Virus record (IMG/VR): IMGVR_UViG_3300024259_000122
Coordinates: 1-28,709 of that record
DNA from: a virus
Strand: one strand, 5' to 3'
DNA length: 28,709 bases
This document shows, piece after piece, positions 4,681 through 28,709 of this stretch. Below the pieces are notes generated by a model, which was not told the DNA's origin, did not search any database, and saw only the letters and a list, made by a program, of their open reading frames with translations. The translations under genes were made by a program, and so were the position numbers. How positions within the stretch are numbered: position 1 is the first letter of the stretch; every line of letters begins with the position of its first letter.

Positions 4681-4693
4681 TAAATTTTAATAT

Positions 4694-5106: not shown

Positions 5107-5115
5107 AGCATTCAC

Positions 5116-5649: not shown

Positions 5650-5660
5650 TCTAAGATTAT

Positions 5661-5723: not shown

Positions 5724-5733
5724 ATTTTAATGT

Positions 5734-5807: not shown

Positions 5808-5808
5808 T

Positions 5809-5883: not shown

Positions 5884-5884
5884 G

Positions 5885-5958: not shown

Positions 5959-5971
5959 AATTTTAATATAT

Positions 5972-6046
5972 GCCCCGGTAGCCCAATTGGTAGCAGGCAC
6001 ACGGTTTAGATCCGTGGTGATGTAGATTCGAATTCTACTCGGGGTA
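5972..6046 (+). tRNA. tRNA-Leu (TAG), short variable loop
   Basis: Acceptor GCCCCGG/TCGGGGT, anticodon arm CACGG TTTAGAT CCGTG, T arm GTAGA TTCGAAT TCTAC. The variable region is only GTGAT, unlike the long arm expected for bacterial tRNA-Leu. CCA is not encoded. Confidence 0.82.
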
Positions 6047-6054
6047 CTTTTTAT

Positions 6055-6141
6055 GGGCGTGTGATGTAATGGCAGCCATGACAGACTTAAAATCTGTTGA
6101 CCGTAATGGTCGTGTGGATTCAAATTCCACCGCGCCTACCA
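6055..6141 (+). tRNA. tRNA-Leu (TAA), class II
   Basis: Acceptor GGGCGTG/CGCGCCT, anticodon arm ACAGA CTTAAAA TCTGT, long variable arm GACC GTAAT GGTC, T arm GTGGA TTCAAAT TCCAC, encoded CCA. Confidence 0.9.
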
Positions 6142-6156
6142 AATTTGAATATCTGT

Positions 6157-6244
6157 TCCTGGATGGTGAAATTGGTAGCCACAGCGGCCTGTTAAGCCGC
6201 CGCCTGTAATGGGCTTGCAAGTTCGATGCTTGCTCCAGGAGCCA
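6157..6244 (+). tRNA. tRNA with Asn anticodon (GTT) but class II long variable arm
   Basis: Acceptor TCCTGGA/TCCAGGA, D arm GTG...CAC, anticodon arm GCGGC CTGTTAA GCCGC, then a long variable arm CGCCTGTAATGGGCTT, T arm GCAAG TTCGATG CTTGC, G discriminator, encoded CCA. The anticodon says Asn while the body looks like tRNA-Leu. Confidence 0.85.
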
Positions 6245-6253
6245 AATTTTTAT

Positions 6254-6330
6254 GTCCCAGTAGTTCAGTTGCATAGAACAATTGTCTTCTAAACAATAGG
6301 TCGAAGGTTGAATTCCTTCCTGGGACTCCA
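6254..6330 (+). tRNA. tRNA-Arg (TCT)
   Basis: Acceptor GTCCCAG/CTGGGAC, D stem GTTC/GAAC, anticodon arm ATTGT CTTCTAA ACAAT, T arm GAAGG TTGAATT CCTTC, encoded CCA. Confidence 0.9.
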
Positions 6331-6341
6331 AATTTTAATAT

Positions 6342-6425
6342 GGAAGCGCTGCCATCAGTGAAGCAATCTGTCTGCTAAACAGTTGACGTTAATTCGTCAT
6401 GCAGGTGCAAATCCTGTCGCTTCCG
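6342..6425 (+). tRNA. tRNA-Ser (GCT)
   Basis: Acceptor GGAAGCG/CGCTTCC, anticodon loop CTGCTAA, long variable arm TGACG TTAATT CGTCA, T stem GCAGG/CCTGT, G discriminator. CCA is not encoded. Confidence 0.88.
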
Positions 6426-6427
6426 AT

Positions 6428-6511
6428 CCGGGTATTGAGCAACAGTGGCTCGTCTGGCTGTAACCCAGATGTCGAAAGACCGTGGTGGTGCAAATCCATC
6501 TGCCCGGACCA
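6428..6511 (+). tRNA. tRNA-Tyr (GTA)
   Basis: Acceptor CCGGGTA/TGCCCGG, D stem GAGC/GCTC, anticodon arm TCTGG CTGTAAC CCAGA, long variable arm with GTC GAAA GAC, T stem GGTGG/CCATC, encoded CCA. Confidence 0.9.
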
Positions 6512-6523
6512 AATTTTAAAATC

Positions 6524-6552
6524 TTGTTTCGTAGTTCCAAATATGCTATAAT
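6524..6552 (+). promoter_or_regulatory. sigma70-like promoter with weak -35
   Basis: TTGTTT (6524-6529) and a perfect TATAAT (6547-6552) with 17-nt spacing, 38 nt before the HNH gene at 6591. Confidence 0.6.
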
Positions 6553-6590
6553 ATAGGTATTCTGAGTTCGAACCTATAAGGAAACATATT

Positions 6591-7334
6591 GTGGAACTAT
6601 TTTGTGTAAACTGTGGAAACGAGATAACTAAGGATAAGTCAGCTAAGCGTAAATTTTGTTCGCGTTCCTGCTCTGCGGTTTATTCACTTCCTCGGCATAC
6701 GGGGAAGGTATTTAAAAAGACATGCAAGTGCGGTAAAAAATTTGAATCAAAAACCAGAAATAGAGTACACTGCGAAAACTGTGCTATATACATACCAGTA
6801 CGCAAAAGGAAAAAGCGGGTACCCAACAAAAACGCGTTTAATCCATGGATTACGAGCACAGGATATTTTGTTGATCGCCGTACGACTACTGGAAAGTACG
6901 TTAAGGTACGTGTTCGCGAACACCCAAATGCGAGAAATGGGTATATAGTCGAGCATCGAGTACTAGTAGAAGATAAGCTAGGTAGAATACTGGAAGCGCA
7001 CGAGGCAGTACACCACATCGACGGTAATCGCAAAAACAACAATCTAAGCAATTTGCAGTTACTTACCCATGCCGCGCACACCAGTCTACACGCTTGTCGC
7101 CATGGCGTCAATATGCTGCTATTAAAATGCCCAACATGCGGAATTTTATTTGAACGAGAACGAGGAAAATCGCATGTAAGCAAACGTACGTTGTCTAGTA
7201 GTTGCTCAATAGAGTGTGGGCATAAATTTATGTGGAGGCTTCGAAAAGAGCGGAGCAGCAAAGAAGTGCAAAAACTTCTTGCAGAAAATGTAGTTAAGGA
7301 GTATAAAGTATTCAATAAGCCTCTAGTGACATAG
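6591..7334 (+). CDS. HNH endonuclease flanked by zinc-ribbon-like segments
   Basis: A 247-residue protein starting at GTG after AAGGAAA; the GTG is chosen because it follows the ribosome site at normal distance and lies behind its own promoter. N-terminal cysteine groups (CVNC, CSRSC; then CKCG and CENC at about 45-64) form one or two zinc ribbons. The HNH_3-like core is at about 121-167: EHRVLVEDKLGR, HHIDGNRKNNNLSNLQLL and HxxLH. A further ribbon follows at 180-210 (CPTC, CSIEC). This multi-finger build is typical of phage homing nucleases. It interrupts the tRNA array between tRNA-Tyr and tRNA-Ser. Confidence 0.9.
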   Translation: MELFCVNCGNEITKDKSAKRKFCSRSCSAVYSLPRHTGKVFKKTCKCGKKFESKTRNRVHCENCAIYIPVRKRKKRVPNKNAFNPWITSTGYFVDRRTTTGKYVKVRVREHPNARNGYIVEHRVLVEDKLGRILEAHEAVHHIDGNRKNNNLSNLQLLTHAAHTSLHACRHGVNMLLLKCPTCGILFERERGKSHVSKRTLSSSCSIECGHKFMWRLRKERSSKEVQKLLAENVVKEYKVFNKPLVT

Positions 7335-7343
7335 TCTTAGTAT

Positions 7344-7424
7344 GGAGGGTCTGTTATCGGTGAAAACGAGCAGCCTTGAAAGCTGTGGACTTCGGTTCGG
7401 TAGGTTCGACTCCTGCACCCTTCG
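7344..7424 (+). tRNA. tRNA-Ser (TGA)
   Basis: Acceptor GGAGGGT/ACCCTTC, D stem GTT/AAC, anticodon loop CTTGAAA, variable arm with a GAC TTCG GTTC hairpin, T arm GTAGG TTCGACT CCTGC. CCA is not encoded. Confidence 0.88.
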
Positions 7425-7437
7425 AAAATTTTAACAT

Positions 7438-7516
7438 GGAGAGTCTGTTATTGCTGGAACGCACGATTTCGAAAATCGCGACTTAGGTCATGGGGGTTGG
7501 ATTCCCTCACTCTCCG
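7438..7516 (+). tRNA. tRNA-Ser (CGA)
   Basis: Acceptor GGAGAGT/ACTCTCC, anticodon loop TTCGAAA, variable arm GAC...GTC, T stem GGGGG/CCCTC with loop TTGGATT. CCA is not encoded. Confidence 0.86.
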
Positions 7517-7519
7517 TAT

Positions 7520-7594
7520 TGGCAGTTAATTCAGCGGTAGAAATCGAATCTTATATATTCGTATGCATCGGTTCGACTCCGATACTGCCGACCA
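7520..7594 (+). tRNA. tRNA-Ile (TAT)
   Basis: Acceptor TGGCAGT/ACTGCCG (T-G at the end), anticodon arm CGAAT CTTATAT ATTCG, T arm ATCGG TTCGACT CCGAT, encoded CCA. It reads AUA directly without lysidine. Confidence 0.88.
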
Positions 7595-7605
7595 AATTTT
7601 AATAT

Positions 7606-7681
7606 GGAACTGTATTTCAGTAGGTAGAAAGCGAGTCTGATAAATTCGTACGCGTTTGTTCAATTCAAACCAGTTCCACCA
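7606..7681 (+). tRNA. tRNA-Ile (GAT)
   Basis: Acceptor GGAACTG/CAGTTCC, D stem TTTC/GAAA, anticodon arm CGAGT CTGATAA ATTCG, T arm GTTTG TTCAATT CAAAC, encoded CCA. Confidence 0.9.
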
Positions 7682-7682
7682 T

Positions 7683-7758
7683 GGGCCGATAGTTCAGTTA
7701 GGAGAATACTAGTTTTGCAATCTAGAGGTCGCGGACGCAATTTCCGCTCGGTCCACCA
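7683..7758 (+). tRNA. tRNA-Ala (TGC)
   Basis: Acceptor GGGCCGA/TCGGTCC, D stem GTTC/GAAT, anticodon loop TTTGCAA, T stem GCGGA/TCCGC with loop CGCAATT, encoded CCA. The usual G3-T70 identity pair of tRNA-Ala is visible. Confidence 0.9.
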
Positions 7759-7767
7759 AATTTTTAT

Positions 7768-7844
7768 GGCGTAATAGTTCAATTGGAAGAATAGTTGGTC
7801 TCCAAAACCAGAAGACCTCCGTTCAATTCGGAGTTACGCTGCCA
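7768..7844 (+). tRNA. tRNA-Trp (CCA)
   Basis: Acceptor GGCGTAA/TTACGCT, D stem GTTC/GAAT, anticodon loop CTCCAAA on TTGGT/ACCAG, T arm CTCCG TTCAATT CGGAG, G discriminator, encoded CCA. Confidence 0.9.
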
Positions 7845-7866
7845 AATTTTTTAGGAGGAAAACCAC

Positions 7867-7895
7867 TTGACTTTTCAAAACAAATGTGGTATACT
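7867..7895 (+). promoter_or_regulatory. sigma70-like promoter
   Basis: TTGACT (7867-7872), 17-nt spacer and TATACT (7890-7895) in the context TGTGGTATACTA, which recurs at 8282-8292 and in part at 10831-10848. It lies 33 nt before the 59-residue gene. Confidence 0.85.
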
Positions 7896-7927
7896 ACCAT
7901 TAGTTAAGTGAACAAAGGGACCACACA

Positions 7928-8107
7928 ATGACATTTGAAGAATTTAAAACGCAATACAGCGGAAAACTGTGGGACGTGGAGGAAATAGCGGAGGGAGTCC
8001 TAGAACACGTTACAGACGCTCCTGAACTTTACAGCAGCGCTGAACTTTTTCTAGCTGAACGAGCGTTCCTAATAGAAGAACTAAGAGAACGCGATTTTAC
8101 AGTTTAA
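7928..8107 (+). CDS. Small acidic unknown protein (59 residues)
   Basis: ATG at 7928 opens a 59-codon frame ending in TAA at 8105-8107. The product is strongly acidic and helical (MTFEEFKTQY ... LFLAERAFLIEELRERDF). There is only a weak purine-rich site upstream (AAAGGGACC), but a clean promoter lies just before it. No family is recognised. Its transcript runs straight into the long stem-loop at 8117-8241, which may protect or process the mRNA end. A small, promoter-led, acidic early protein could be a host-takeover factor; this is inference only. Confidence 0.65.
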   Translation: MTFEEFKTQYSGKLWDVEEIAEGVLEHVTDAPELYSSAELFLAERAFLIEELRERDFTV

Positions 8108-8116
8108 TACGCAACC

Positions 8117-8241
8117 GTTTCTCCCCGCCGAGGACCACAACCAACATGGATCTTGAGTTGAGTTTTTGATCGCGTAATGATCTGCGCGTAGACGTTGATA
8201 CTATGATGGACTTTGGGTGGTTGCCTCGGCCAGGGAGAAAC
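8117..8241 (+). ncRNA. Long closed stem-loop, candidate structured RNA
   Basis: Three near-contiguous helices close a 125-nt element: GTTTCTCCC (8117-8125) with GGGAGAAAC (8233-8241), CCGAGG (8128-8133) with CCTCGG (8224-8229), and CAACC (8138-8142) with GGTTG (8219-8223). That is 20 pairs. The apical 76 nt contain no convincing reading frame. It lies on the transcript of the 59-residue gene and ends 22 nt before the next promoter. It could be a ncRNA, an mRNA end or an RNase III site. Confidence 0.6.
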
Positions 8242-8263
8242 ACGAAATAAATTGAAATACCAT

Positions 8264-8292
8264 TTGACATTCAGGAGATTATGTGGTATACT
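8264..8292 (+). promoter_or_regulatory. sigma70-like promoter for a non-coding transcript
   Basis: Perfect TTGACA (8264-8269), 17-nt spacer, TATACT (8287-8292) in TGTGGTATACTG. No protein gene of reasonable size follows for about 500 nt on this strand. Confidence 0.85.
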
Positions 8293-8298
8293 GATTGT

Positions 8299-8542
8299 GC
8301 TTATGAAAGTTGAACATTGGTTGTCGCGTGAATAAACATTCGCACAATATCGGACGTTAAAAATAGGCTGGAGCAATCCCAACGAATACGTTGCAAGTTC
8401 TTCGGTAGCCTGAAACTTGTAGCGCTGGAATAGCCTAACCACCGACGCGGTGACACGATGTCGATTTTGAAATTTTTGCCCATGCCAGACACTTAACGGT
8501 GAAGGCTGTCCGGGATGACGCTTCTGTCATGGGCATGTTTTT
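8299..8542 (+). ncRNA. Candidate promoter-driven structured RNA, about 240 nt
   Basis: A strong promoter precedes this segment, which has no convincing + strand reading frame. Hairpins seen: TAGGCT (8364-8369) with AGCCTA (8432-8437), enclosing CAACG AATA CGTTG (8380-8393) and CAAGTT...AACTTG (8394-8419). These are followed by CACCG ACG CGGTG (8440-8452) and GACA CGA TGTC (8452-8462). The end is TGCCCATG (8477-8484) with CATGGGCA (8528-8535) and T5 at 8538-8542, a terminator-like finish. The ends are estimated. I do not recognise the RNA class. Confidence 0.55.
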
Positions 8543-8647
8543 GCTTTCGTAGGTTTCGGAGCGCACTTGAGAAGGAAGAGCATTGCTTATGTCTAGTATT
8601 TCTTTTGCCGGAATTTACGATTGCCCAAAATTTGAATATTGATTTTT

Positions 8648-8729
8648 GCTTGCCTTGGTCGTTTTTATTTTGCTTATCACATCGTGCGGACTGACTCGCG
8701 CATACTCCTTGGCGATTGAGGCAAGCACA
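8648..8729 (+). other. tRNA-sized element with acceptor-like stem, unidentified
   Basis: GCTTGCCT (8648-8655) pairs perfectly with AGGCAAGC (8719-8726), followed by ACA. A tRNA-type linker (AATTTGAATATTG) stands before it and AAAATTTTTGACG after it. The size fits a tRNA, but no D, anticodon or T arm can be drawn. It may be a decayed tRNA or another small RNA. Confidence 0.35.
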
Positions 8730-8749
8730 TTATATTTGAAAATTTTTGA

Positions 8750-8787
8750 CGCGGAATAGAGTAATTGGTAACTCGCTAGTCTCATAT
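8750..8787 (+). pseudogene. tRNA 5' half with CAT anticodon, interrupted in the anticodon loop
   Basis: CGCGGAA, TA, a perfect D arm GAGT AATTGGTA ACTC, G, then CTAGT and the loop CTCATAT. The expected ACTAG and the whole 3' half are missing; the HNH ribosome site follows at once. The bases are those of an initiator-like tRNA-Met. It is either a remnant of a tRNA cut by insertion of the HNH cassette or a stand-alone half. Confidence 0.65.
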
Positions 8788-8803
8788 TAAGGAAAACACA
8801 TTA

Positions 8804-9328
8804 GTGTACTACAGTAAATTACATGAAAACACGGCACTAGCATATGCAAAAGGTTATCGAGTAGTAGATGGGATAGTCATGTCCCCGTATTCAAAAGAAC
8901 CGCGTACGCTATACACAAAGATGACTAAAAAACATTGTTCATATAAATTTACAATAAAAACGAGCGAAGGAAAAGGTTTTGGAATACCTGTACATAAATT
9001 AGTAGCATATCAAAAATTTGGTGACAAGGCATTTGAAACCGGAACGCATGTTAGGCACTTGGATGGTGACAGTTTGAATAACTCAGAAGAGAATATTGCG
9101 TTAGGTACTCCATCGGAAAACTCGTTCGATAGGCCCCACAATAAGAGGAAGCAATCTGCAATAAAAACAGCCACCGCTCATCGTAAATTTTCAGATAAAG
9201 AATGTGAAGAAATACGAAAATACCACGAAGAAACAAGATCGTATAAAAAGGTAATGGCGAAGTTCAACATTCCAGCAAAATCTTCACTTCGTTGTATTTT
9301 AACTACTGAGTATGTAACTACAGTTTAA
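8804..9328 (+). CDS. HNH homing-type endonuclease (HNH_3-like), copy 2
   Basis: A 174-residue protein starting at GTG 14 nt behind AAGGAAA. It is a clear paralogue of the protein at 2965, sharing AKGYRVVDG, VHKLVAYQKFG, VRHLDGDSLNN and the C-terminal helix-turn-helix-like end (YKKVMAKFNIPAKSSLRCIL). The HNH core lies at about residues 62-101. A tRNA-Met 5' half ends 16 nt upstream, and a complete initiator-like tRNA begins 7 nt downstream. That context suggests homing into a tRNA gene. The copy appears intact. Free-standing mobile endonuclease activity is expected from the family. Confidence 0.88.
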   Translation: MYYSKLHENTALAYAKGYRVVDGIVMSPYSKEPRTLYTKMTKKHCSYKFTIKTSEGKGFGIPVHKLVAYQKFGDKAFETGTHVRHLDGDSLNNSEENIALGTPSENSFDRPHNKRKQSAIKTATAHRKFSDKECEEIRKYHEETRSYKKVMAKFNIPAKSSLRCILTTEYVTTV

Positions 9329-9334
9329 TCCTGA

Positions 9335-9410
9335 CGCAGCGTGGAGGAGTTGGTCACCTCGCGGGTTTCATACGCCTGAGACACGAATTCGAATTTCGTC
9401 GCTGCTACCA
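9335..9410 (+). tRNA. tRNA-Met (CAT), initiator-like
   Basis: Acceptor CGCAGCG/CGCTGCT with a C1-T72 mismatch, the hallmark position of initiator tRNA. D stem GAGG/CCTC, anticodon arm CGGGT TTCATAC GCCTG, T arm ACGAA TTCGAAT TTCGT, encoded CCA. The GGG half of the initiator stem is partly kept. Confidence 0.85.
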
Positions 9411-9418
9411 ATAATTTT

Positions 9419-9491
9419 GCGGAGTAGTGTAGAAGTTAACATGCTGGATTCATATTCCAGTGCCTCAAGGGCCAATCTTGACTCCGCTCCC
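9419..9491 (+). tRNA. tRNA-Met (CAT), elongator-like
   Basis: Acceptor GCGGAGT/ACTCCGC, anticodon arm CTGGA TTCATAT TCCAG, T stem TCAAG/CTTGA with loop GGCCAAT. The 3' end is TCCC, so CCA is imperfect. An Ile (AUA) reading by lysidine is possible but less likely, since tRNA-Ile (TAT) is present. Confidence 0.78.
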
Positions 9492-9495
9492 AATC

Positions 9496-15495: not shown

Positions 15496-15665
15496 ACTGG
15501 ATATTCGACACGTTAATCTGGATATTGACGACCTTCCAATCCTGGTGGAACATGCATCCTTGGTTATTCGGGCTTGGGGCAACGGTGTCCGCGTTAGTTT
15601 TTCTTTATATAATGTGCGTGATTTCGATTGTGCTAATGCTGCATTTTGGAACCTGGGGAAGATAA
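15492..15665 (+). CDS. Small membrane protein, 57 residues
   Basis: ATG at 15492 overlaps the previous stop (ATGA), and the frame ends at TAA 15663-15665. The sequence is tryptophan-rich at the front ([20 protein letters not shown]), with a clear membrane helix at about 26-51 ([20 protein letters not shown]). It is tightly packed between two real genes. Its role is unknown. Holin-like size is noted, but no lysis neighbour supports that. Confidence 0.65.
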
Positions 15666-15666
15666 T

Positions 15667-15996
15667 ATGCGCGAAAAACTATTCACACTGACCAAAAAAG
15701 ACTTTGAAGTCCAAACGTTCAGAGGTAGCGGTCCAGGCGGGCAACATCGTAACAAAACAGATTCCGCAGTGCGCATAATTCACAAGGAAAGTGGCGCGTC
15801 CGCAGAATCTCAAACTAGTCGCAGTCAACGCTCGAACAAAAAAGTCGCGTTTGAACGCTTATCCAAAACACCAAAATTCAAACTGTGGCTAAGCAAGCGA
15901 ATTCATAATCTACCGACGTCTCCAGAAGAAATTGAAATACTGGACAAGGATATTATTACTGAATTTCAAGTCGAAGGAAAATGGAAAAAGCAATGA
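15667..15996 (+). CDS. GGQ-domain peptide-release/rescue factor-like protein
   Basis: ATG at 15667 is taken because GGGGAAG precedes it. The 109-residue protein contains [20 protein letters not shown] with GGQ at 24-26, then [15 protein letters not shown], the class I release-factor catalytic domain. There is no codon-recognition domain, so it resembles the stop-codon-independent rescue proteins (ArfB/Pth4 type) or a free RF domain 3. The C-terminal tail is charged and basic at the very end (GKWKKQ), shorter than that of ArfB. Hydrolysis of peptidyl-tRNA on stalled ribosomes is the likely role. Confidence 0.85.
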
Positions 15997-19984: not shown

Positions 19985-20295
19985 TTTTTTGGGCAATACA
20001 TGGAGGTAGCGCCCTTCTCACTGTGTGCGCAAATCAATGTGCAGGGTTTTGGAATGTCCGTTACATAGGATAACGGCAAACCGTAGGAAACGAGGGCGCG
20101 GGATATTGGGATTCCCGCCACAGTGACTTAATTGAATATTTTTATCGCTGCGCAACGCAAACACGAATGCGCATGGGCCGGAGGTTACTTTCGAATGGGG
20201 TGACCAGCAAGGAACTTCCCTGGGCAATACCCGGCGAGGTACGGAAAGTCCGGGGTAATGGTGACGGACGCGATAATGAATAAGAGGAAAACAAT
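19985..20295 (+). other. 311-nt gap without a supported gene
   Basis: It holds a hairpin GCGGGA...TCCCGC near 20099-20119 and a repeated GGGCAATAC (about 19990 and 20223), each followed by a GAGGTA some bases later. A 38-codon frame at 20167-20283 has no ribosome site. The strong site AAGAGGAAAA for the next gene lies at its end. No promoter consensus is seen. Confidence 0.4.
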
Positions 20296-20673
20296 GTGAA
20301 CAGACGAAATTTTTTGCAGTCTTCCGCCGTACTACTGAGCGCTTGTATAGTTCCTAAAACATTCGCAAGCACTATTTCCCCAGAACGTGGTAGAAAACCT
20401 TGGGCAATTCGCCTAGAAACGTATGACAAAAAAGAGCTAACAACCCTACCGATCACTATCACCACTGAATTTTGCGCAGAAGGGGCGATATTGCATACAG
20501 GCACCATTGGCATAGAAGGGTGCGCATTGCTCGACACTAAGCATAATATCATGCGCCGATACTCAATCAGCACTTCTAATAAGGCCGACCTGCATATCTC
20601 CTGCCCGTATGTCAATGCTGGAGACACTATACGCATGTGCATGCCAAAGAATTATTTACTTAACGCAGCCTAA
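20296..20673 (+). CDS. Exported protein with Tat-like signal and lipobox
   Basis: GTG at 20296 follows GAGGAAAACAAT. The 125-residue product begins with NRRNFLQSSAVLLSAC, a twin-arginine motif (RRxFL) followed by a hydrophobic core and LSAC, which fits a lipobox with Cys17. The mature part has many beta-prone stretches and cysteines (TEFCAEG, EGCALL, ISCPY, RMCM). A small periplasmic or outer-membrane domain is likely. No known family. It forms a pair with the next gene, which has the same signal pattern. Confidence 0.75.
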   Translation: MNRRNFLQSSAVLLSACIVPKTFASTISPERGRKPWAIRLETYDKKELTTLPITITTEFCAEGAILHTGTIGIEGCALLDTKHNIMRRYSISTSNKADLHISCPYVNAGDTIRMCMPKNYLLNAA

Positions 20674-20685
20674 TAAGGAACGAAC

Positions 20686-21489
20686 ATGAACAGAAAAACA
20701 TTTTTACAAAGTTGCATTTCCCTAATGCCGGTAGCATTCTTAGGTAGTGCTACTCCTGCAGCTAGTGCGGAGAACTTCACACATGCCGCGAATTCTAAAA
20801 TAAATATCTTTAACTGTCCGTGGAAGACCAAATGTTCATTTATAGTGCATCCTGAAGCTATCTATTGGAAATTCGTTAACTCGGACTTAGCCTGCGCCGT
20901 TTCTCCGAAGCACGCTAGGATAGGCTATTCCAAAGCAAAATGGGTTGTTGAATTTTTCACTAGAAGACCTGGAATAGCGAACAATCCGTACAAAACACAC
21001 CTCATCAACGCTACTTGTACTTTGGAAAACTGCGGTGAGTTATCTAGCGCCCTAAGTTTAGCGGACGAGTGCATCAATGTGGTTTATTATGACTTGGGAA
21101 ACTCGAACATTGTCCCTTCCAAAAGTGCTCGTCTAATGTCAGCGCAGTCACCATGGATAAAAAATACTACCACAATTCTTCGATGGCTGCAGCAAGAAGA
21201 TCAAAAAAATTTAGGGCGCAATGCACCGTGGGCAATTCAAGCAAGAACAAAAGAAGATGAGATAGTGGCGACGTTTGTACTAAAAACTTCTGGAGACGCG
21301 ATAGATTTTAACGTAATCGGAGGAACAGTGGAACCAGGTTCTATCTATCTAATCAATAAATATTTCCATAAATTGTCGCGAGTATCGGTAAAAGGCTTGC
21401 TCCAGCACAGGGCACTATTGTATTCTGGAGAAGTAATAAAGATACCTAAAAATTGGTATTTTTATGGCACAAAAAGTGAAATAATATGA
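20686..21489 (+). CDS. Exported protein with Tat-like (RK) signal
   Basis: A 267-residue protein starting with MNRKTFLQSCISLMPVAFLG and an Ala-rich cleavage region (ATPAASA at about 22-28). The NR(R/K)xFLQS start is shared with the preceding protein, so the signals are probably homologous. The mature part has several cysteines (NCPWKTKC, NATCTLENC) and is otherwise unrecognised. The family is unknown. It sits 12 nt behind its partner and overlaps the next start as ATGA. Exported phage proteins of this type may alter the cell envelope or bar superinfection; that is inference. Confidence 0.75.
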   Translation: MNRKTFLQSCISLMPVAFLGSATPAASAENFTHAANSKINIFNCPWKTKCSFIVHPEAIYWKFVNSDLACAVSPKHARIGYSKAKWVVEFFTRRPGIANNPYKTHLINATCTLENCGELSSALSLADECINVVYYDLGNSNIVPSKSARLMSAQSPWIKNTTTILRWLQQEDQKNLGRNAPWAIQARTKEDEIVATFVLKTSGDAIDFNVIGGTVEPGSIYLINKYFHKLSRVSVKGLLQHRALLYSGEVIKIPKNWYFYGTKSEII

Positions 21490-21711
21490 ACACACCCGAA
21501 AAAGATTCCGAAATAAAAAAAAAACACCACTAAACACATAGCAACTATTCAAGTGTGGATCGAAGCCTTGCACATTCTTGATTCCATGAGTAAAGGCCCG
21601 CCAAAACACTTAAACAAAAAACGACTAATCGTGAAGTTGTTTGAACGATTTCATAATAAAATGGCAAACAGAATAATGCAACAAATACAAAGGGAACTCA
21701 AAAAATCGTGA
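21486..21711 (+). CDS. Small gene split by a 10-A run, likely frameshifted
   Basis: ATG 21486 overlaps the previous stop, and the frame closes at TAA 21531 just after ten A residues (21515-21524). The +1 frame opens inside the A run and continues to TGA 21709, which overlaps the next GTG as GTGA. Joined, the product is about 74 residues: MNTPEKDSEIKK, then a basic helical part with IQVWIEALHILDSMSK and NRIMQQIQRELKKS. Both ends are coupled to neighbours, which supports one gene. Transcriptional or ribosomal slippage on A10, a real mutation or a sequencing error could explain it. Confidence 0.6.
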
Positions 21712-21998
21712 ACACGCCAATAAGAACACTCGGAACAGCCAAACCCGACAAGAAGACAACCGAATACCTATTAAAACTGAACAACTTTATCACCCGACTG
21801 CATGACCTTCATATTGTTCACCAAGAAATTGGCGGGCATCTCGAATCTGAGAATCCCGTGCGCGAAATTTCAGAACGCGTACACGACAAACTTGCGGCAA
21901 AACTTGAAAACGACATCGAAAAAATCTTGGAAAAACTATACACAAAACAACTTAACGCAGTACCGCACGAGGAGGAAGACAATGCCCAAAAGACCTAG
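21708..21998 (+). CDS. Unknown 96-residue helical protein, GTG start
   Basis: GTG at 21708 overlaps the end of the split gene. The product is charged and helical (YLLKLNNFITRLHDLHIVHQ, DKLAAKLENDIEKILEKLY), and heptad spacing suggests a coiled coil. It overlaps the DUF3310 gene by 17 nt. No family recognised. Confidence 0.68.
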   Translation: MNTPIRTLGTAKPDKKTTEYLLKLNNFITRLHDLHIVHQEIGGHLESENPVREISERVHDKLAAKLENDIEKILEKLYTKQLNAVPHEEEDNAQKT

Positions 21999-22416
21999 AA
22001 CCGATCCCCGCCTAGCACAACCAATCGATAATGTGCCGTGCGCAGAGGACGCCTTAATGGACAACGCGGAACCATTTGGAGAACCTCTGCCCCTAACAAC
22101 AAAAGAAGCCGTAGCCGAGCTAATCAAAAATGAAAAACCAGACATGGTCAACCGCCCTTCACATTATGCCGCTGCGTGTCGAATTCCCGAAGGAAACTAC
22201 GACCCTGAAACCAAAATCGCGTTCATCGAATGTTTGGACGTTATTGAAGCGTTGAATTTGGATATGACCGGGCATTTACAAAACGTCTTCAAGTACATCT
22301 GGCGAGCAGGCAAAAAACAAAATACGGATACGCTGGAAGACTTGAAGAAGGCCCAAGTTTACCTTGATCGGCATATTGTTCGAACTGAGCGCACAAAGGA
22401 GAGTAAAAATGGGTGA
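21982..22416 (+). CDS. DUF3310 family protein
   Basis: ATG 21982 follows GGAGGAAGAC; a longer in-frame extension to 21802 overlaps the previous gene and is not used. In the 144-residue product the last 75 residues match the phage DUF3310 pattern: RPSHYAA, IAFIECLDVIEAL, HLQNVFKYIWRAGKK, EDLKKAQVYLDRHI. The fold is sometimes compared with MazG-like nucleotide-binding helices, and the family is almost confined to phages. The first 60 residues are acidic and of low complexity. The biochemical role is not established. Confidence 0.85.
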   Translation: MPKRPRTDPRLAQPIDNVPCAEDALMDNAEPFGEPLPLTTKEAVAELIKNEKPDMVNRPSHYAAACRIPEGNYDPETKIAFIECLDVIEALNLDMTGHLQNVFKYIWRAGKKQNTDTLEDLKKAQVYLDRHIVRTERTKESKNG

Positions 22417-22693
22417 CCTTACTACAATAACCAAACACATTAGGCACATCAAAAAAGAAATAAAACACGCTGAAAAGGAAATGAGCAAAACAGTCGAAGT
22501 ACTTGCGCAAAAATCCACAGTAACAGAGTTGGATAGTAAAGCGCTTGGCTACGCTATTGAATGGGCCATGCAACTTGAGCAACAACGCCACGAGGCTATT
22601 TTGGTAAAAGCTAAGTTGGAAAATCAGTACACATTGCCACATGCAGACCTTGCTGGCTGGCTATGGAACAACGAACCACACGCAAAGGAATAA
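22409..22693 (+). CDS. Unknown 94-residue coiled-coil-like protein
   Basis: ATG 22409 lies behind AAAGGAGAG and overlaps the DUF3310 stop. The product is almost wholly helical with dense charges (HIRHIKKEIKHAEKEMSKTV, AMQLEQQRHEAILVKAKLEN). No domain is recognised. Confidence 0.68.
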   Translation: MGDLTTITKHIRHIKKEIKHAEKEMSKTVEVLAQKSTVTELDSKALGYAIEWAMQLEQQRHEAILVKAKLENQYTLPHADLAGWLWNNEPHAKE

Positions 22694-22698
22694 ACATT

Positions 22699-22974
22699 AT
22701 GAAATTCAAAACACTAGACAAGTACATAGAATATTTATACGCGGAAATTGAATTCATGCGCAAGGATCCGGATTTTTACATGGAGAGGTTGCACGCGTTT
22801 GACAAATATTTGAACAATGCAATAATCCAAAAATTCCAAAACAACGAAGAGCACAACACGTACATTAGTTATCCTACGTATGCACCGCCCGTTTATCCTT
22901 ATTATGAATATCCGAGGTATCCTCCTTCCCCTGTTATTACGTGGAGCGGATCCAGTACGGACCTCCAGGAGTAA
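22699..22974 (+). CDS. Unknown protein with Tyr/Pro-rich tail
   Basis: I start it at ATG 22699 behind AAGGAATAAAC. The first 50 residues are helical (DKYIEYLYAEIEFMRKDPDF). The last 40 are rich in Tyr and Pro (SYPTYAPPVYPYYEYPRYPP), a disordered or sticky segment with adhesive or scaffold character. No family. Low-complexity tails of this kind are unusual among its compact neighbours. Confidence 0.68.
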   Translation: MKFKTLDKYIEYLYAEIEFMRKDPDFYMERLHAFDKYLNNAIIQKFQNNEEHNTYISYPTYAPPVYPYYEYPRYPPSPVITWSGSSTDLQE

Positions 22975-22980
22975 TCGAGT

Positions 22981-23163
22981 ATGCTATTCTACATTGTGCT
23001 GATATTCTCCGCGCTGTTCATACTAGGAATATGGTACGGGAACGCTAATAGCTCGGGAGGCGTACTGGACTTGCCGGATCCTGCGGGATGCAGTGTCGCT
23101 GTTGTTAGTTTTTTGATACTACTGGTTTGCGCTGGAATTTATATTGGAAAACTTTACCTATGA
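22981..23163 (+). CDS. Small two-helix membrane protein
   Basis: A 60-residue product with TM segments at about 2-19 (LFYIVLIFSALFILGIWY) and 37-59 (CSVAVVSFLILLVCAGIYI), joined by a short polar hairpin. It lies 6 nt behind the previous gene. The stop overlaps the next ATG (ATGA). Possible holin-like size and topology, but nothing else supports lysis. Confidence 0.68.
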   Translation: MLFYIVLIFSALFILGIWYGNANSSGGVLDLPDPAGCSVAVVSFLILLVCAGIYIGKLYL

Positions 23164-23357
23164 ATGACACCACAAATATGAACTTCTATACCAAACCCTG
23201 TCTAGAGCCTTATTCAACTTGCATTTGGTGCAAAAGAGCAATTCCAATTCGATTACTATATGTAAACCACTACGAAAACGGAGAGTCAATATTGGAGTGG
23301 CCGTGCTGCAATGCTTCACAGCGAATATGGTCCCCGCAAAATCCCAATGAGGAATAA
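23160..23357 (+). CDS. Small cysteine-containing protein
   Basis: ATG 23160 overlaps the previous stop; an in-frame ATG at 23127 lies inside the membrane-protein gene and is less likely. The 65-residue product has CIWCKRAIPIR and WPCCNA, consistent with a zinc site. Unknown family. Confidence 0.62.
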   Translation: MNDTTNMNFYTKPCLEPYSTCIWCKRAIPIRLLYVNHYENGESILEWPCCNASQRIWSPQNPNEE

Positions 23358-23360
23358 TAT

Positions 23361-23498
23361 ATGAGCTACTTGGACTTTTTTATTTATGTTGCGCTGGTTT
23401 TGCCCGCGCTTTTAACTGGGTTTTTCGTTGTGGTGATAATAGGCGGAATTCTTGGCTGGGCATTCCCTTTTCCACCTAAAAAGGAGGACGAATCTTGA
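23361..23498 (+). CDS. Small single-span membrane protein, 45 residues
   Basis: ATG 23361 opens a 45-codon frame ending at TGA 23496. A long hydrophobic stretch (IYVALVLPALLTGFFVVVII) is followed by a short acidic tail (KKEDES). The ribosome site of the next gene (AAGGAGG) lies in its last codons, and the frames overlap by 4 nt. Unknown function. Confidence 0.6.
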   Translation: MSYLDFFIYVALVLPALLTGFFVVVIIGGILGWAFPFPPKKEDES

Positions 23499-23737
23499 TA
23501 GCCCACCGTGAAGACGACCTTTTAATAAATGAACCTCCGTTCGCTATTATTGTCCAAAAAGAGGGGGCACAATACACAATCGCAGGTAAAACGCAGTGCG
23601 GCAAAAAATCAGAAGCGGTTGACGTAGTTCTCACTGAATTGCGCGAGCACGTTGAATCTTGCAAATGCGATATCGCCGCGTTAATGAAGTATAGATCCGC
23701 ATTAGAGAATGTCGAACACCTAGAACAAAGAAAGTAG
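23495..23737 (+). CDS. Unknown 80-residue protein, TTG start
   Basis: TTG at 23495 is set by a perfect AAAAAGGAGG site about 7 nt upstream. The product has a beta-prone half (PPFAIIVQKEGAQYTIAGKT) and a helical half (EAVDVVLTELREHVESCKC). No known domain. It ends 4 nt before the PP-loop enzyme gene. Confidence 0.68.
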   Translation: MIAHREDDLLINEPPFAIIVQKEGAQYTIAGKTQCGKKSEAVDVVLTELREHVESCKCDIAALMKYRSALENVEHLEQRK

Positions 23738-23741
23738 GTAT

Positions 23742-24512
23742 ATGCACCATTTGATAAGTTATTCTGGTGGCATCACAAGTTGGGGCACCGCCAAACTGGT
23801 TATAGACACTATTGCAAAACCTGAAGACACCGTTGAACTGTTGTTCGCGGACACCTTAATAGAAGATCCTGATTTACATCGCTTTTTGGACGAGACAAGC
23901 GAAAAATTTGGAGTGCCAATTACCAAACTATGTGACGGTAGAACACCGTGGGAAGTTTTCAGGTCCGAGAAATTCCAGGGAGACAGTCGCATCGATCCGT
24001 GCAGTCGCCATCTAAAGAGAAAACTACTTTGGAAATACATAAAAGACAACTATTCCCCGGAAGAAGTGGTAATCTATTTGGGACTAGACGCGAATGAAGC
24101 ACACCGTTTGGAGCGTACTCGCGAATCCAGAGATGCCTATACTATCCGCGCCCCACTCGTGGAGAATGATACCTTCAAAGAGTCCGTGTTCGAATGGTTA
24201 AAAGAATGCAACATTGAACCTCCCAGCTTGTATGGTTATGGTTTTAGCCACAACAACTGCGGAGGCTTCTGCATAAAAAGCGGACAAGGTCAGTTCAAAT
24301 TATTGATGGACCACTTTCCAGAACGCTACGAATGGCACATAGCCGAGCAAGAAAAAACATTCAAAGAACTTGGAAAACGTCACCCATTCATACGCAAAAT
24401 GATAAACGGAAAAGTTCGGTATTTATCGTTGGCGGATTTCCGACGGAGAGTAAAGGCAGGCGAAGAGTTTGACAAGTTTGAACTTGGAGGCTGCGGCTGC
24501 GCTATTGATTAG
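23742..24512 (+). CDS. PP-loop (PAPS reductase/adenine nucleotide alpha hydrolase) family enzyme
   Basis: A 256-residue protein beginning MHHLISYSGGITSWGTAKLV; SGGxTS at 8-13 is the PP-loop that binds ATP pyrophosphate. VELLFADTLIED follows as the second strand. Cysteines occur in DPCSRHLK (about 87), NNCGGFC and the C-terminal GGCGC, enough for a metal or Fe-S site. Such phage proteins are often annotated PAPS reductase-like, but adenylation, thiolation or DndC-like DNA sulfur chemistry would use the same fold. No dnd neighbours are present. Substrate unknown. Confidence 0.85.
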   Translation: MHHLISYSGGITSWGTAKLVIDTIAKPEDTVELLFADTLIEDPDLHRFLDETSEKFGVPITKLCDGRTPWEVFRSEKFQGDSRIDPCSRHLKRKLLWKYIKDNYSPEEVVIYLGLDANEAHRLERTRESRDAYTIRAPLVENDTFKESVFEWLKECNIEPPSLYGYGFSHNNCGGFCIKSGQGQFKLLMDHFPERYEWHIAEQEKTFKELGKRHPFIRKMINGKVRYLSLADFRRRVKAGEEFDKFELGGCGCAID

Positions 24513-24567
24513 TGAAAACCATGCAACCGAAAATAGCCCGTCTAAAACAATAATGAGCACCCAATAA

Positions 24568-25884
24568 ATGGCAACAAAGAAAATCCGATGGTCTCGCAGT
24601 GGACGACAACGCATAGCCGACAACATGGCGTCCCTAAAGGAAAACCTATCCACACTCATTCATTACCCTACTCCGCAGGAGCAGCAGCTTGTTGAATTTT
24701 GCATGTTGCCCGCCATCTCCCTTAAATGGCAATCTAAGCCCCTTTGGTGTATGGTCGTAGGCCCACCAAGCAGCGGAAAAACCCTCCATATCGAATTAAT
24801 GAAAAACTGGAATGACGCAGTATTCGTTTCAAGCATCACAAAGAATTCCCTTATTAGTGGATACCGCGAAGACTCAAGCAAGGATGACGACGCTCCTGAT
24901 CCTTCGCTGCTTCCTGAGCTAGACGGCAAAGTTATGGTCCTTAAAGATTTAACGTGCTTGCTTGAAGGCCCGAAGGATGACCTTCACGCAGTAATGGGAC
25001 AATTACGAGACGTCTATGATGGCGAAATTTCAAAAGCATTCGGCAACATTGGGCTACAGTCGCATAAGAGCCGCTTCAACATGTTAATTGCCGTGACCCC
25101 TGCAATCGACAGCTACCACAGTGTAGGTCAGCAGCTAGGAGAACGCTTTATTTATCGACGGGAGACATGCACCAACCGACTAAAAATTACGCAGACCGCA
25201 GTAAAAAATCTCTTAACAAACAAATCCCAAACCAATGAACTTGCAGAACTTGAACGTCAATTTATACAGTTTATACAAGAACTCCCGCTGGTTACCGTAA
25301 GTGAACTCCACTGGGACGATGAAATGTTTAACCGGATTACGATTGGCGCTGATTTTGCCGCGTTGGTGAGGTCACACGTAGCGAGAGAGCGCGGGGGGTA
25401 TGACCCACAAAGTCTTGCGTTGCCCGAGGTTGGCGCTAGATTTGGTTTGCAGATTTCCCAGTGCATAGCGGGATATTGCATTGCTAATGGGATCGACACG
25501 CCAGGGGACGACGCTTGGAATTTCGGGGGAGCACGAGTATTGCGGGATACATTGCCCATGCCTATTTGCGCATTGTTATATACATTGTGGAGTAAACATT
25601 ATGAATGCGTAAATACGACAGGCGGTATACCCTTGTTTGGGCTAGAACAGTTGGGAAGGGACACGCGTTTAGGCACAAAATCCGTTCGGTCTATACTGCT
25701 CGACTTAGAGTTGCACGGCCTAGTCGGAAAAATGCACTCTAATCGCGGGGGGAGTCGCAGCACAAAGTTCTACCTTAATAAGACCACTCTTGAAAAAATT
25801 AATTATCTCCGCTTGTTCGATGGCTATTCGTTGTCTCCGTTTGAACTGGATTTGCCTGATGGGGTGCCCGCTGACGGCCATTAA
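24568..25884 (+). CDS. AAA+ ATPase with C-terminal winged-helix-like domain
   Basis: A 438-residue protein. Walker A GPPSSGKT stands at 65-72 after WCMVV; VMVLKDLT at about 120-127 is in the Walker B place, although the second acid is not the usual DE. FNMLIAVTPAID looks like sensor 1 and LGERFIYRR a possible arginine finger. The last 120 residues (FGLEQLGRDTRLGTKSVRSILLDLELHGLVGK) read as a winged helix. The overall plan recalls phage helicase or initiator-loader ATPases; motor function on DNA is inferred. The ribosome site is weak, so the exact start is less certain. Confidence 0.78.
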   Translation: MATKKIRWSRSGRQRIADNMASLKENLSTLIHYPTPQEQQLVEFCMLPAISLKWQSKPLWCMVVGPPSSGKTLHIELMKNWNDAVFVSSITKNSLISGYREDSSKDDDAPDPSLLPELDGKVMVLKDLTCLLEGPKDDLHAVMGQLRDVYDGEISKAFGNIGLQSHKSRFNMLIAVTPAIDSYHSVGQQLGERFIYRRETCTNRLKITQTAVKNLLTNKSQTNELAELERQFIQFIQELPLVTVSELHWDDEMFNRITIGADFAALVRSHVARERGGYDPQSLALPEVGARFGLQISQCIAGYCIANGIDTPGDDAWNFGGARVLRDTLPMPICALLYTLWSKHYECVNTTGGIPLFGLEQLGRDTRLGTKSVRSILLDLELHGLVGKMHSNRGGSRSTKFYLNKTTLEKINYLRLFDGYSLSPFELDLPDGVPADGH

Positions 25885-25893
25885 AAATAACGC

Positions 25894-25923
25894 TTGACAT
25901 TCCATACTACAATATGTTATACT
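25894..25923 (+). promoter_or_regulatory. sigma70-like promoter
   Basis: Perfect TTGACA (25894-25899), 18-nt spacer, TATACT (25918-25923), 19 nt before the GTG start at 25942. Its position rules out the in-frame ATG at 25894 as a start. Confidence 0.85.
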
Positions 25924-25941
25924 GCGGCAAAGGAGAATAGC

Positions 25942-26118
25942 GTGAGTTTCGACAAACATTATCCAAATAGAAAAGACCGCAGAAAACAATACTACCGCAG
26001 TAAGGCGTTTGACCGCTCTTGCCGTCCAGGTGGTGATTGCCCATGGTGCATTGGTAATCGCATGCACAAAAATAAAAAGCGACTGCAAAGCGCAAAAGAC
26101 CAGGAGAAATACGAATAA
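25942..26118 (+). CDS. Small basic protein with CxxC motif, 58 residues
   Basis: GTG at 25942 follows AAAGGAGAATAGC and its own promoter. The product is very basic (NRKDRRKQYYRSKAFDRSC, then GNRMHKNKKRLQ) with CRPGGDCPWC, three cysteines that may form a zinc knuckle with a histidine. The family is not recognised. Basic, early-expressed small proteins often bind nucleic acid. A second promoter follows just behind its stop. Confidence 0.7.
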   Translation: MSFDKHYPNRKDRRKQYYRSKAFDRSCRPGGDCPWCIGNRMHKNKKRLQSAKDQEKYE

Positions 26119-26127
26119 ACAAAATGG

Positions 26128-26156
26128 TTGACATTCACGCGTATTCATGGTATAAT
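26128..26156 (+). promoter_or_regulatory. sigma70-like promoter
   Basis: Perfect TTGACA (26128-26133), 17-nt spacer, perfect TATAAT (26151-26156), followed by AAAGGAGAAAA and ATG at 26182. It drives the metallopeptidase and radical-SAM pair. Confidence 0.9.
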
Positions 26157-26181
26157 GAATTCAAAGGAGAAAAGCACAACC

Positions 26182-26772
26182 ATGGATAAAATAGAGGAAG
26201 TCGCAAAAAACCTAATCAAAAAACTTGAAGACCCGGACAGTTTACCCGCGCCTTTTCCATTACAGTGGTTAGGAAAACGTTCTGCAATTCCATTTTTGCA
26301 CACGTTGCCGTTGCGGTCCATATTGACCCCCTGGAATATTACCCTTAGCGCACAAGCTACCTATGGTGGACTACCCGAACCTCAATATCGAGGACTGACT
26401 TATTTTTACCCTGATAACAGCATTGAAATTGAAATGTACGCCCGAAGCGTTAATACTTGGATACACGAACTTATGCATGTGGCCGCAACAAAGAATGGAA
26501 GAGATCCTGGCGCAAAAAGCATCGATAGTTACGGTATTGACCACTTGTGGATTAGAGATGAAACAATAGCGGAATTCGGCGCTGCCATAGCACTAACTTG
26601 CCTGAACATGGAAGAGCACGTGGATATTGGAAGGTGTTTCCACTATGTTAGATGTCATTTGGCGCATTTGCCTTACCCAAGGACAGTAGCGACGAAATGT
26701 AAATCAAATCTCCCTTTAGTGTGCAGCGACGTAGAAACACTATTAAGAACCGCGGGAGTTGAAACATGCTAA
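26182..26772 (+). CDS. HExxH zinc metallopeptidase, ArdC/polyvalent-protein-like
   Basis: ATG 26182 is fixed by the promoter and AAAGGAG site. The 196-residue protein has WIHELMHVA with H95, E96 and H99, followed after 28 residues by DETIAEFGAAIAL, whose E127 or E131 would be the third zinc ligand. This H-E-x-x-H plus E-x-x-A-E-x-G layout is that of the peptidase domain in ArdC-type anti-restriction and polyvalent proteins. The ssDNA-binding ArdC N-domain is not evident in the first 90 residues. No signal peptide, so it acts in the cytoplasm. It overlaps the radical-SAM gene by 7 nt. Confidence 0.8.
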   Translation: MDKIEEVAKNLIKKLEDPDSLPAPFPLQWLGKRSAIPFLHTLPLRSILTPWNITLSAQATYGGLPEPQYRGLTYFYPDNSIEIEMYARSVNTWIHELMHVAATKNGRDPGAKSIDSYGIDHLWIRDETIAEFGAAIALTCLNMEEHVDIGRCFHYVRCHLAHLPYPRTVATKCKSNLPLVCSDVETLLRTAGVETC

Positions 26773-27272
26773 CAAAACAATCACCAAGCCAACTTCGCCT
26801 TTTACTGTGGGACACTTGCAACAAGCGCTGCGCGGGATGCTGCAATAAAGATTGGGATTTACTTGCACTCCCAATATGCAAAAACTACAAACCCTACAAA
26901 ACAATTATGCTAACAGGCGGAGAGCCGATGTTGTTTCCAACCAAGGTCCACACTACCATTAATCAAATTCGCAGGTCATCCAAAGCGATGTTATACTTAT
27001 ATACTGCACGTGTCATCAATACACAAGCAACTATTCAAATTTTACAAAAAATAGACGGCATTTGTGTAACTCTGCACGACCAGTCGGATGTTGCACCGTT
27101 TTTTAAGTTGGCGTCCGCAGCCCGAGGATTGCGTAAAAGTCTCCGTGTAAACATATTCGACAATGTGGATATTGGTTTGCGAAAAATTCCTACCCATTGG
27201 CGAGCAAAAACCAACATAAAACGAATACCTAATTGTCCAATACCGGATGATGAAGTTTTCATGCGCATTTAA
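26766..27272 (+). CDS. Short radical-SAM-like protein
   Basis: A 168-residue protein with C18-x3-C22-x2-C25 (DTCNKRCAGCC), the 4Fe-4S binding motif, and LTGGEP at 49-54, the SAM-binding GGE motif. Usual radical-SAM enzymes are at least 200-250 residues, so this is a compact or partial barrel; LYLYTARVIN and GICVTLHDQ could be further strands. Two more cysteines (C26 and C38) lie near the cluster. Substrate unknown. Overlap with the metallopeptidase gene suggests a joint function. Relation to QueE or activating enzymes cannot be settled by eye. Confidence 0.8.
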   Translation: MLTKQSPSQLRLLLWDTCNKRCAGCCNKDWDLLALPICKNYKPYKTIMLTGGEPMLFPTKVHTTINQIRRSSKAMLYLYTARVINTQATIQILQKIDGICVTLHDQSDVAPFFKLASAARGLRKSLRVNIFDNVDIGLRKIPTHWRAKTNIKRIPNCPIPDDEVFMRI

Positions 27273-27296
27273 TTTTTAAAAGGATCACAAACGAAT

Positions 27297-27833
27297 ATGA
27301 CGTGCATTATTGGGATTAACGATGGAAAGAAAACATGGATAGGCGGTGACAGTGCATCCTCTGACACCCATACAATCCACTCTGTCCACACAGAAAAAGT
27401 ATTTAAAAAGGGTAAGTTTATTATCGGAATTTCCGGAGCATGGGAAGCAAGCAACGTTATGCGATATCGTTTCAATCCTTCGCCAATAAAAAAGGGAGTC
27501 AGCGTAGATAAATACATGCACACCATCGTGTTTGATCACATCCGTCGAATATTTAAGCATGCTGGGCATCTTACAATAAGCAGTTCAAATGAATCCCAAA
27601 ACGGAACAATCTTAATTGGAATAGGAAAGCATTTGTATCTATTGCAGTCTGGCCTAAGTTTAGTGGATTACTCCAACAATTTTGAAGCCACTGGATCGGG
27701 AGGTGCCGTTGCATTAGGTGCCATGGCGGCTACCAAGGAGTTACTGCCCGAAGAACGAATAATGAACGCCTTGGAGATTGCTGCAAAGTATACTACGTGC
27801 GTACGCGGCCCTATGAAAGTATTAAGCACATGA
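27297..27833 (+). CDS. Proteasome beta/HslV-like Ntn hydrolase
   Basis: A 178-residue protein starting MTCIIGINDGKKTWIGGDSA. After loss of Met the N-terminal Thr would be the nucleophile, and Asp17 (GGDSA) and Lys33 (TEKVFKKG) fall at the exact positions of the proteasome catalytic residues. GSGG in ATGSGGAVALGAM matches the conserved SGG loop. The length is that of HslV. No ATPase partner is beside it, though a host unfoldase could serve. A phage-encoded self-compartmentalising peptidase is the likely product. It has AAAAGGATC upstream but no clear promoter. Confidence 0.85.
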   Translation: MTCIIGINDGKKTWIGGDSASSDTHTIHSVHTEKVFKKGKFIIGISGAWEASNVMRYRFNPSPIKKGVSVDKYMHTIVFDHIRRIFKHAGHLTISSSNESQNGTILIGIGKHLYLLQSGLSLVDYSNNFEATGSGGAVALGAMAATKELLPEERIMNALEIAAKYTTCVRGPMKVLST

Positions 27834-27878
27834 CTAAGAAAATAAGCAATCCGCCCCACAAACCACAAGGACTCCTGA

Positions 27879-28115
27879 ATGTCTGAACTAGACAACAGAT
27901 ATGCAGTAAGCGCTGAAACCGAAAGCCCTAACGACTCTAGTATTTACGTAGGAGTGGATTACAGTTCAGATGACTTTTGCATTGAATGCGGCGTGGACTT
28001 CGCCAACCTGGATAAGAATACGGAACTCGCATTCGACGAAGAAGAGAACGGCCCTTACTGCCCAGTGTGCTTTGAGTTTGTTCTTTCCGCACTCTCTGAA
28101 TTTCAGGGATTTTAG
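27879..28115 (+). CDS. Acidic protein with two CxxC motifs
   Basis: A 78-residue product; cysteines in FCIECGVDF and YCPVCFEF form a likely zinc site within a strongly acidic chain (DKNTELAFDEEENG). It is preceded after 45 nt by the Ntn-hydrolase gene; an 18-codon frame in between is too short to support. No family is recognised. Confidence 0.7.
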   Translation: MSELDNRYAVSAETESPNDSSIYVGVDYSSDDFCIECGVDFANLDKNTELAFDEEENGPYCPVCFEFVLSALSEFQGF

Positions 28116-28118
28116 CGC

Positions 28119-28475
28119 ATGACAAAACCAAAATCCATAAGCAGAGACGCGCAGCACTCCCGATTTTTAGATTTGGAGTCCCAACACATTGAGCAACGTC
28201 TTTGCGCGGAAGCGCTGATCAATCCCGCCTTCATGGGCATGGATGACGAAGAATGGAACACGCACGTCCTGGACAGCGTTTTTTCCGAGCAATGCGCGAA
28301 CCGAAAAGATGAACTATTCAAAGAGCGATGCGTTCAAGCGGAACTGGTGAACGCGGATCCCGAATATTCGAATGCGCAAACCCAAATAAAGCTAAGTGAA
28401 TCCCAACGACGTTCAAAGAAAATCCTAAAGAAGATCGCCACACTGGTGGACGCCCATTCCCATAAGCGCGAGTAG
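28119..28475 (+). CDS. Unknown 118-residue charged protein
   Basis: It starts 3 nt behind the previous stop. It is helical and charged with several cysteines (RLCAEAL, EQCANRK, ERCVQAE) not in zinc-like pairs. The C-terminal part is basic (SQRRSKKILKKIATL). Unrecognised. It is followed by a strong TGGAGGAAAA site for the next gene. Confidence 0.7.
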   Translation: MTKPKSISRDAQHSRFLDLESQHIEQRLCAEALINPAFMGMDDEEWNTHVLDSVFSEQCANRKDELFKERCVQAELVNADPEYSNAQTQIKLSESQRRSKKILKKIATLVDAHSHKRE

Positions 28476-28498
28476 CAACACTCCTGGAGGAAAACAAT

Positions 28499-28709
28499 AT
28501 GGCTAAAACAAAATTCAACAGGCTTACAATACCCTATTCCCGCAAATACCAACTCGAAAAAACCGACGAACTTTGCTGGACCATCCAAGAAAAGAAAACC
28601 AATGAAAAAACAGGCGTATCCACATGGAGAACCGTAAGTTACCACGGAACACTGCGAAAAGCATGCACGAACCTTGCCCAACGCGTAACCGACCAAGGTG
28701 ACTCTGAAA
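28499..28709 (+). CDS. Unknown protein, 3' partial
   Basis: ATG 28499 behind CTGGAGGAAAACA opens a frame that runs off the right edge after 70 codons. The visible part (TIPYSRKYQLEKTDELCWTI, then STWRTVSYHGTLRKACTNLA) reads as three beta strands and a helix. The pattern is seen in small phage proteins of unknown role. No motif gives a function. Confidence 0.7.
   Translation, partial: MAKTKFNRLTIPYSRKYQLEKTDELCWTIQEKKTNEKTGVSTWRTVSYHGTLRKACTNLAQRVTDQGDSE

Follow-up and report, generated by a model that had tools for sequence, protein, structure and literature searches.

The DNA analysed here, called the window throughout, is a virus record of 28,709 nucleotides (28.7 kb), which represents a fragment of a phage genome. 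The window contains a DNA polymerase A, 22 tRNA genes, HNH proteins, a PD-(D/E)XK nuclease, an AAA_24 ATPase, an RF-1-like protein and a PAPS-reductase-like protein. The tRNA genes lie at 2868–9492 (+) in several clusters, with HNH proteins interspersed; the RF-1-domain protein (15646–15996, +, 116 aa) carries a GPGGQ motif and may be an ArfB-like factor for ribosome rescue or release. The object of this study is an open reading frame on the plus strand, which starts with ATG, stops with TGA and encodes 178 residues in an intact frame. The features of the locus are the following:

26128–26772, plus strand: HExxH protein (HELMH) of 214 aa, a putative zinc metallopeptidase (weak match to Pfam PF18818, E 0.09), some 500 bases 5' of the Ntn hydrolase gene
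26766–27272, plus strand: short radical-SAM-like protein of 168 aa with CxxxCxxC and GGE, ending 24 bases upstream of the peptidase
27280–27284, plus strand: candidate ribosome-binding site AAGGA, proposed from its sequence and lying 12 bases 5' of the peptidase ATG
27297–27833, plus strand: proteasome-type Ntn hydrolase gene, 178 aa (PHROG 1040; AAH-like), assigned by homology searches and predicted fold
27300–27302, plus strand: codon of Thr1, the nucleophile once Met is gone
27348–27350, plus strand: codon of Asp17
27396–27398, plus strand: codon of Lys33
27435–27437, plus strand: Gly codon, residue 47 counting Met, the likely equivalent of the oxyanion-hole Gly47 by sequence alignment
27696–27704, plus strand: Ser-Gly-Gly loop, residues 134–136 counting Met, with the Ser129 equivalent by alignment

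No sign of a propeptide was found in the peptidase frame, and the family alignment begins at the same Met-Thr. Thr1, Asp17 and Lys33 are numbered after removal of Met. These three residues and the SGG loop had been read as in place from the letters of the DNA, and this held: their codons were located, and Thr1, Asp17 and Lys33 are invariant across 124 aligned relatives, with a qualification for Asp17: most of the viral relatives were fetched with two search patterns, one of which includes this residue, and its conservation among them is therefore in part a product of the search. The triad is also complete in all 12 phage sequences fetched after a tblastn search, which used no pattern. The 124-relative alignment took in 112 of the 163 loci L015–L177, and one relative having ATT at the matched start position (L082) was kept in the counts.

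Around the triad the window protein departs from its relatives. At the position aligned with Gly47 it has Gly, where the 124 relatives have Ser (109), Thr (9) or Gly (6); at the position aligned with what we take to be Ser129 in proteasome numbering it has Ser, found in 21 relatives, whereas 96 have Cys. The stretch SSFRMGQ is common in the relatives and missing from the window protein; its frequency is inflated, since the patterns by which most of them were fetched contained SSFRM(GQ). At the position presumably corresponding to proteasome Asp166 the window protein has no acidic counterpart (residues 164–168 are KYTTC), and E. coli HslV, judged by eye, also seems to lack an acidic residue there.

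PHROG 1040, annotated “peptidase HslV family”, matches the window protein over residues 1–177 with E 4.3e-20; all 13 members of a reference alignment (A1), E. coli HslV among them, match the same PHROG. The name of this PHROG is to be read as an annotation. No Pfam model matched the window peptidase alone at E 1, and the Pfam Proteasome model matched 10 of the 13 members of A1, E. coli HslV included. A profile built from nine phage members found HslV (1m4y, E 9e-11) and BPH (5ovs, E 1e-8) among PDB sequences, where the single window sequence had no match.

By tblastn, 14 of 50,697 phage records match the window protein; every match spans 97% or more of the query, at under 34% identity. Cultured phages that carry a relative include Geobacillus virus E3 and Pseudoalteromonas phage J2-1. 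Their annotations comprise peptidase HslV family, Ntn_hydrolase-like, proteosome component, putative nucleophile aminohydrolase, ATP-dependent protease subunit and hypothetical protein. Twelve of the 14 records were used (H8 duplicates H9, and ct2KA10 is represented a second time by H11). Relatives were also recognised in 305 of 368 pattern-matched viral stretches and in 101 of 144 pattern-matched stretches of bacterial genomes, the query of the bacterial search being an alignment of phage relatives with the window protein left out. Among the 80 bacterial relatives listed of these 101, 41 belong to Alphaproteobacteria, 18 to Actinomycetes, 8 to Bacillota, 6 to Betaproteobacteria, 4 to Myxococcota and 1 to Bacteroidota, and 2 are unplaced.

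The window protein shares at most 36% identity with the relatives in the tree, where its row is a long branch; long-branch joins were flagged and the tree was not used for any subfamily claim. No near relative of the window phage appeared in scans of viral contigs with the peptidase, a P-loop protein of the window or the polymerase, nor in a megablast of positions 20000–28709 against phage records. The DNA polymerase A fragment (2–1072, +) has at most about 35% identity to the phage records listed, and this divergence of its sequence suggests that the window phage is far from the phages in the collection.

The Ntn hydrolase fold proposed in the sequence-only reading was borne out by structure prediction. 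AlphaFold2, run on a 52-row alignment (A4, window protein included), gave a proteasome fold with pLDDT 94.3 and pTM 0.89. The model has the four-layer alpha-beta-beta-alpha arrangement of proteasome-like Ntn hydrolases, with helices at 49–58, 70–89, 136–145 and 151–165 and a final strand at 174–177; all four core helices are present and H1 is short. The best PDB match in Foldseek is BPH (E 6.5e-12). In VIA-align the model superposes on BPH with Z 21.2 (rmsd 2.3, 168 aligned residues), on an archaeal 20S subunit with Z 20.8 and on HslV with Z 20.3 (rmsd 2.6, 164 aligned residues); by the rule of the tool these three scores are ties, and Z was at least 8 for all 1000 PDB chains compared. Among predicted viral structures there were 36 matches with E ≤0.001, the best at 2.6e-20. 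BPH is a double heptameric ring with a long acidic pore loop, and HslV is a double hexameric ring.

Judged by its sequence and by the model, the window protein is probably an active peptidase after Met removal. We favour, with moderate confidence, the reading that the gene product is an active threonine peptidase, AAH-like and of proteasome type, which would serve in clearing or remodelling proteins early or midway through infection. Translation would start at position 27297 (ATG) and yield no propeptide, and the Met-Thr start suggests that the host methionine aminopeptidase would strip Met1 and expose Thr1. Sequence and model show the subunit as a proteasome beta-type sandwich bearing Thr1, Asp17 and Lys33, and its kinship with BPH and HslV suggests that a ring or partial ring is probably assembled, as in those proteins. 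Peptides or unfolded proteins might then be cleaved, either in the absence of a dedicated unfoldase or with one of the host, and the most likely role would be that host or phage proteins are cleared or remodelled in early or middle infection. The ground for this timing is the position of the window copy in a region of replication, tRNA and translation genes; the many relatives found in a head module count against it. As for the assembly, helices H1–H4 take part in subunit contacts in this family (PMC8665760) and H1 is short in the model (49–58), so that a ring might be different or absent. Because most relatives lack the canonical Gly47 and Ser129, HslV-like action need not be assumed for the family.

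The opposite possibility, that the protein is catalytically idle or structural and has retained the fold alone, could be read from its long branch and the loss of the SSFRMGQ stretch. Nevertheless, the triad is kept, the equivalents of Gly47 and Ser129 are canonical and the frame is intact, and we regard an idle protein as rather improbable.

It had also been supposed that the peptidase might replace HslV, in partnership with a host unfoldase. HslV (ClpQ) shares its fold and its catalytic residues with the window protein, and identity in structural alignments is only about 17–19%. The window protein scores 21.2 bits with TIGR03692 (HslV), where the cut-off is 157.75, and 23.1 bits with NF003964 (HslV), where it is 137; with no HslU found as well, neither identity with HslV nor substitution for it is supported. 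In fact, a search of the window at E 1 gave no HslU match, the window being a fragment and an HslU of the host being possible, and none was found in the 12 phage records carrying relatives. Similarly, AAA_2 was absent from the window, and it exceeded its cut-off in 1 of the 12 phage records; among 46 viral contigs it did so in 1 and matched more weakly in 3 others. Since no phage-encoded HslU was found, the unfoldase, if any, would be host-derived in most cases. This paucity of AAA+ partners agrees with Fuchs, Alva and Lupas, who report no co-occurring AAA+ partner for these homologs (PMC8665760), and a host unfoldase is possible.

A more specific form of the idea is that the phage protein docks on host HslU, or on another AAA+ unfoldase, and redirects ATP-dependent degradation. 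The HslV-like fold (Z about 20) and the lack of a phage-encoded HslU are in its favour, as are the HslV-like genes, unaccompanied by HslU, that are reported from a Salmonella jumbo phage (PMC7823757). The low identity to HslV, the scores far under the HslV model cut-offs and the missing AAA+ partner mentioned above weigh against such a substitute, which we consider quite unlikely. The P-loop protein of the window (24568–25884, +, 438 aa) was considered as an unfoldase partner and left unassigned, having no match in phages, PDB sequences, PHROGs or viral contigs. It has a possible C-terminal winged helix, and its match to the Pfam DprA winged-helix model is below cut-off.

The genes immediately upstream raise a different question, namely whether the peptidase is a narrow processing enzyme or a ligase of the connectase type, acting perhaps on one peptide and possibly cooperating with its radical SAM neighbour. 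Connectase, which is a ligase, belongs to the wider family (PMC8665760), and the short radical-SAM-like gene ends just upstream of the peptidase. By contrast, the window model has both H1 and H2, which connectase lacks (PMC8665760), and a radical SAM gene was near the peptidase relatives in none of 176 loci. Relatives of the radical-SAM-like protein, often annotated as HxsC-like, occur in 37 phage records, most of them of Bacteroides phages, and in the two Bacteroides phage loci inspected no annotated peptidase stood beside the radical SAM gene. We therefore hold this explanation to be very unlikely. An operon of peptidase, radical SAM and HExxH genes was likewise rejected, as no such neighbour recurs in the 176 loci; a tblastn of eight other window proteins in these loci showed that only the polymerase A recurs, in L091.

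The genomic setting of the relatives bears on a further explanation, in which the protein is a head-assembly factor, taking part in the processing or quality control of capsid, portal or scaffold beside the usual prohead protease. A Pfam portal was found in 30 of the 46 viral contigs carrying peptidase relatives, and in 23 of these 30 the relative lies within 8 kb of it, against a mean of 9.95 under uniform random placement, where none of 20,000 draws reached 23 of 30. In 19 of the 30 contigs the relative is upstream of the portal, on the same strand and within 8 kb. In the same contigs, N6/N4 methylase genes were within 8 kb of the portal in only 2 of 11 cases. The recurrent neighbours, named by eye, resemble terminase, portal, prohead protease and capsid. 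The portal-proximal relatives are among the viral contigs behind L015–L097 (for example L020, L028, L032, L050 and L074).

On the other hand, HNH genes cluster near the portal too (13 of 20 within 8 kb), the contigs are interrelated and were selected for their similarity, and the null of uniform placement is weak; for these reasons the portal proximity is treated as a lead. In addition, the window copy lies in the replication/tRNA region, with no head gene seen among the window proteins scanned, and in 10 annotated phage loci no structural gene is annotated within 3–4 kb of the relative. The neighbours in those loci include ribonucleotide reductase, PhoH, thymidylate synthase, DNA ligase and nicotinate phosphoribosyltransferase, with lysis or cell-wall genes in four. 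Taking the two sides together, we consider the head-assembly explanation unlikely. We also give a low probability to a combined scheme, in which an unfoldase-free viral proteasome would have two deployments, as an early-region degrader in large lytic phages like that of the window and as a second, portal-adjacent protease for head assembly in other phages.

The preferred reading, an AAH-like threonine peptidase acting early or midway through infection, concerns a protein whose phage setting is not surprising, phage-borne proteasome homologs having been described in 2021 (PMC8665760). The openly licensed literature that was searched yielded no account of a phage proteasome homolog with a tested function. 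The window copy is a divergent representative whose catalytic and loop residues are canonical, and it is small enough to be expressed and assayed. Moreover, the association of the relatives with the head module offers a concrete hypothesis for the family; Fuchs et al. state that no genomic context they found was suggestive (PMC8665760).

Fuchs, Alva and Lupas described 22 new proteasome homologs, and state that PPH, AAH and CPH of the HslV-like group are carried by phages, AAH being found in many of them (PMC8665760). A “Proteasome-like” gene is also listed in Alteromonas phage V22 (PMC7289586). To judge from sequence comparison, the window protein is a divergent member of this kind of proteasome homolog, already known from many phages. 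With PPH it shares the phage-borne condition; PPH, however, is described as having about 140 residues and no H2 (PMC8665760), and the 178 aa of the window protein, together with its helix at 70–89, led us to reject a PPH identity. Connectase is described as having neither H1 nor H2 and a helical insertion between S3 and S4 (PMC8665760), whereas the window model has both helices and no inserted helices before residue 49. BPH (5ovs/5ovt/5ovu) is the best PDB fold match, with only 20–21% identity to the window protein in structural alignments, and has, in the account of Fuchs et al., no known unfoldase (PMC8665760). By published description the window protein resembles AAH: it is full-size, has no propeptide, has H1–H4, and shows neither insertions nor a C-terminal S12/H5. 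We call it AAH-like rather than AAH because its row is a long branch and the comparison was made with descriptions instead of published alignments. The distribution of the relatives is also similar to that of AAH, as they are spread over phages as well as Alphaproteobacteria and Actinomycetes (59 of the 80 bacterial relatives listed of 101).
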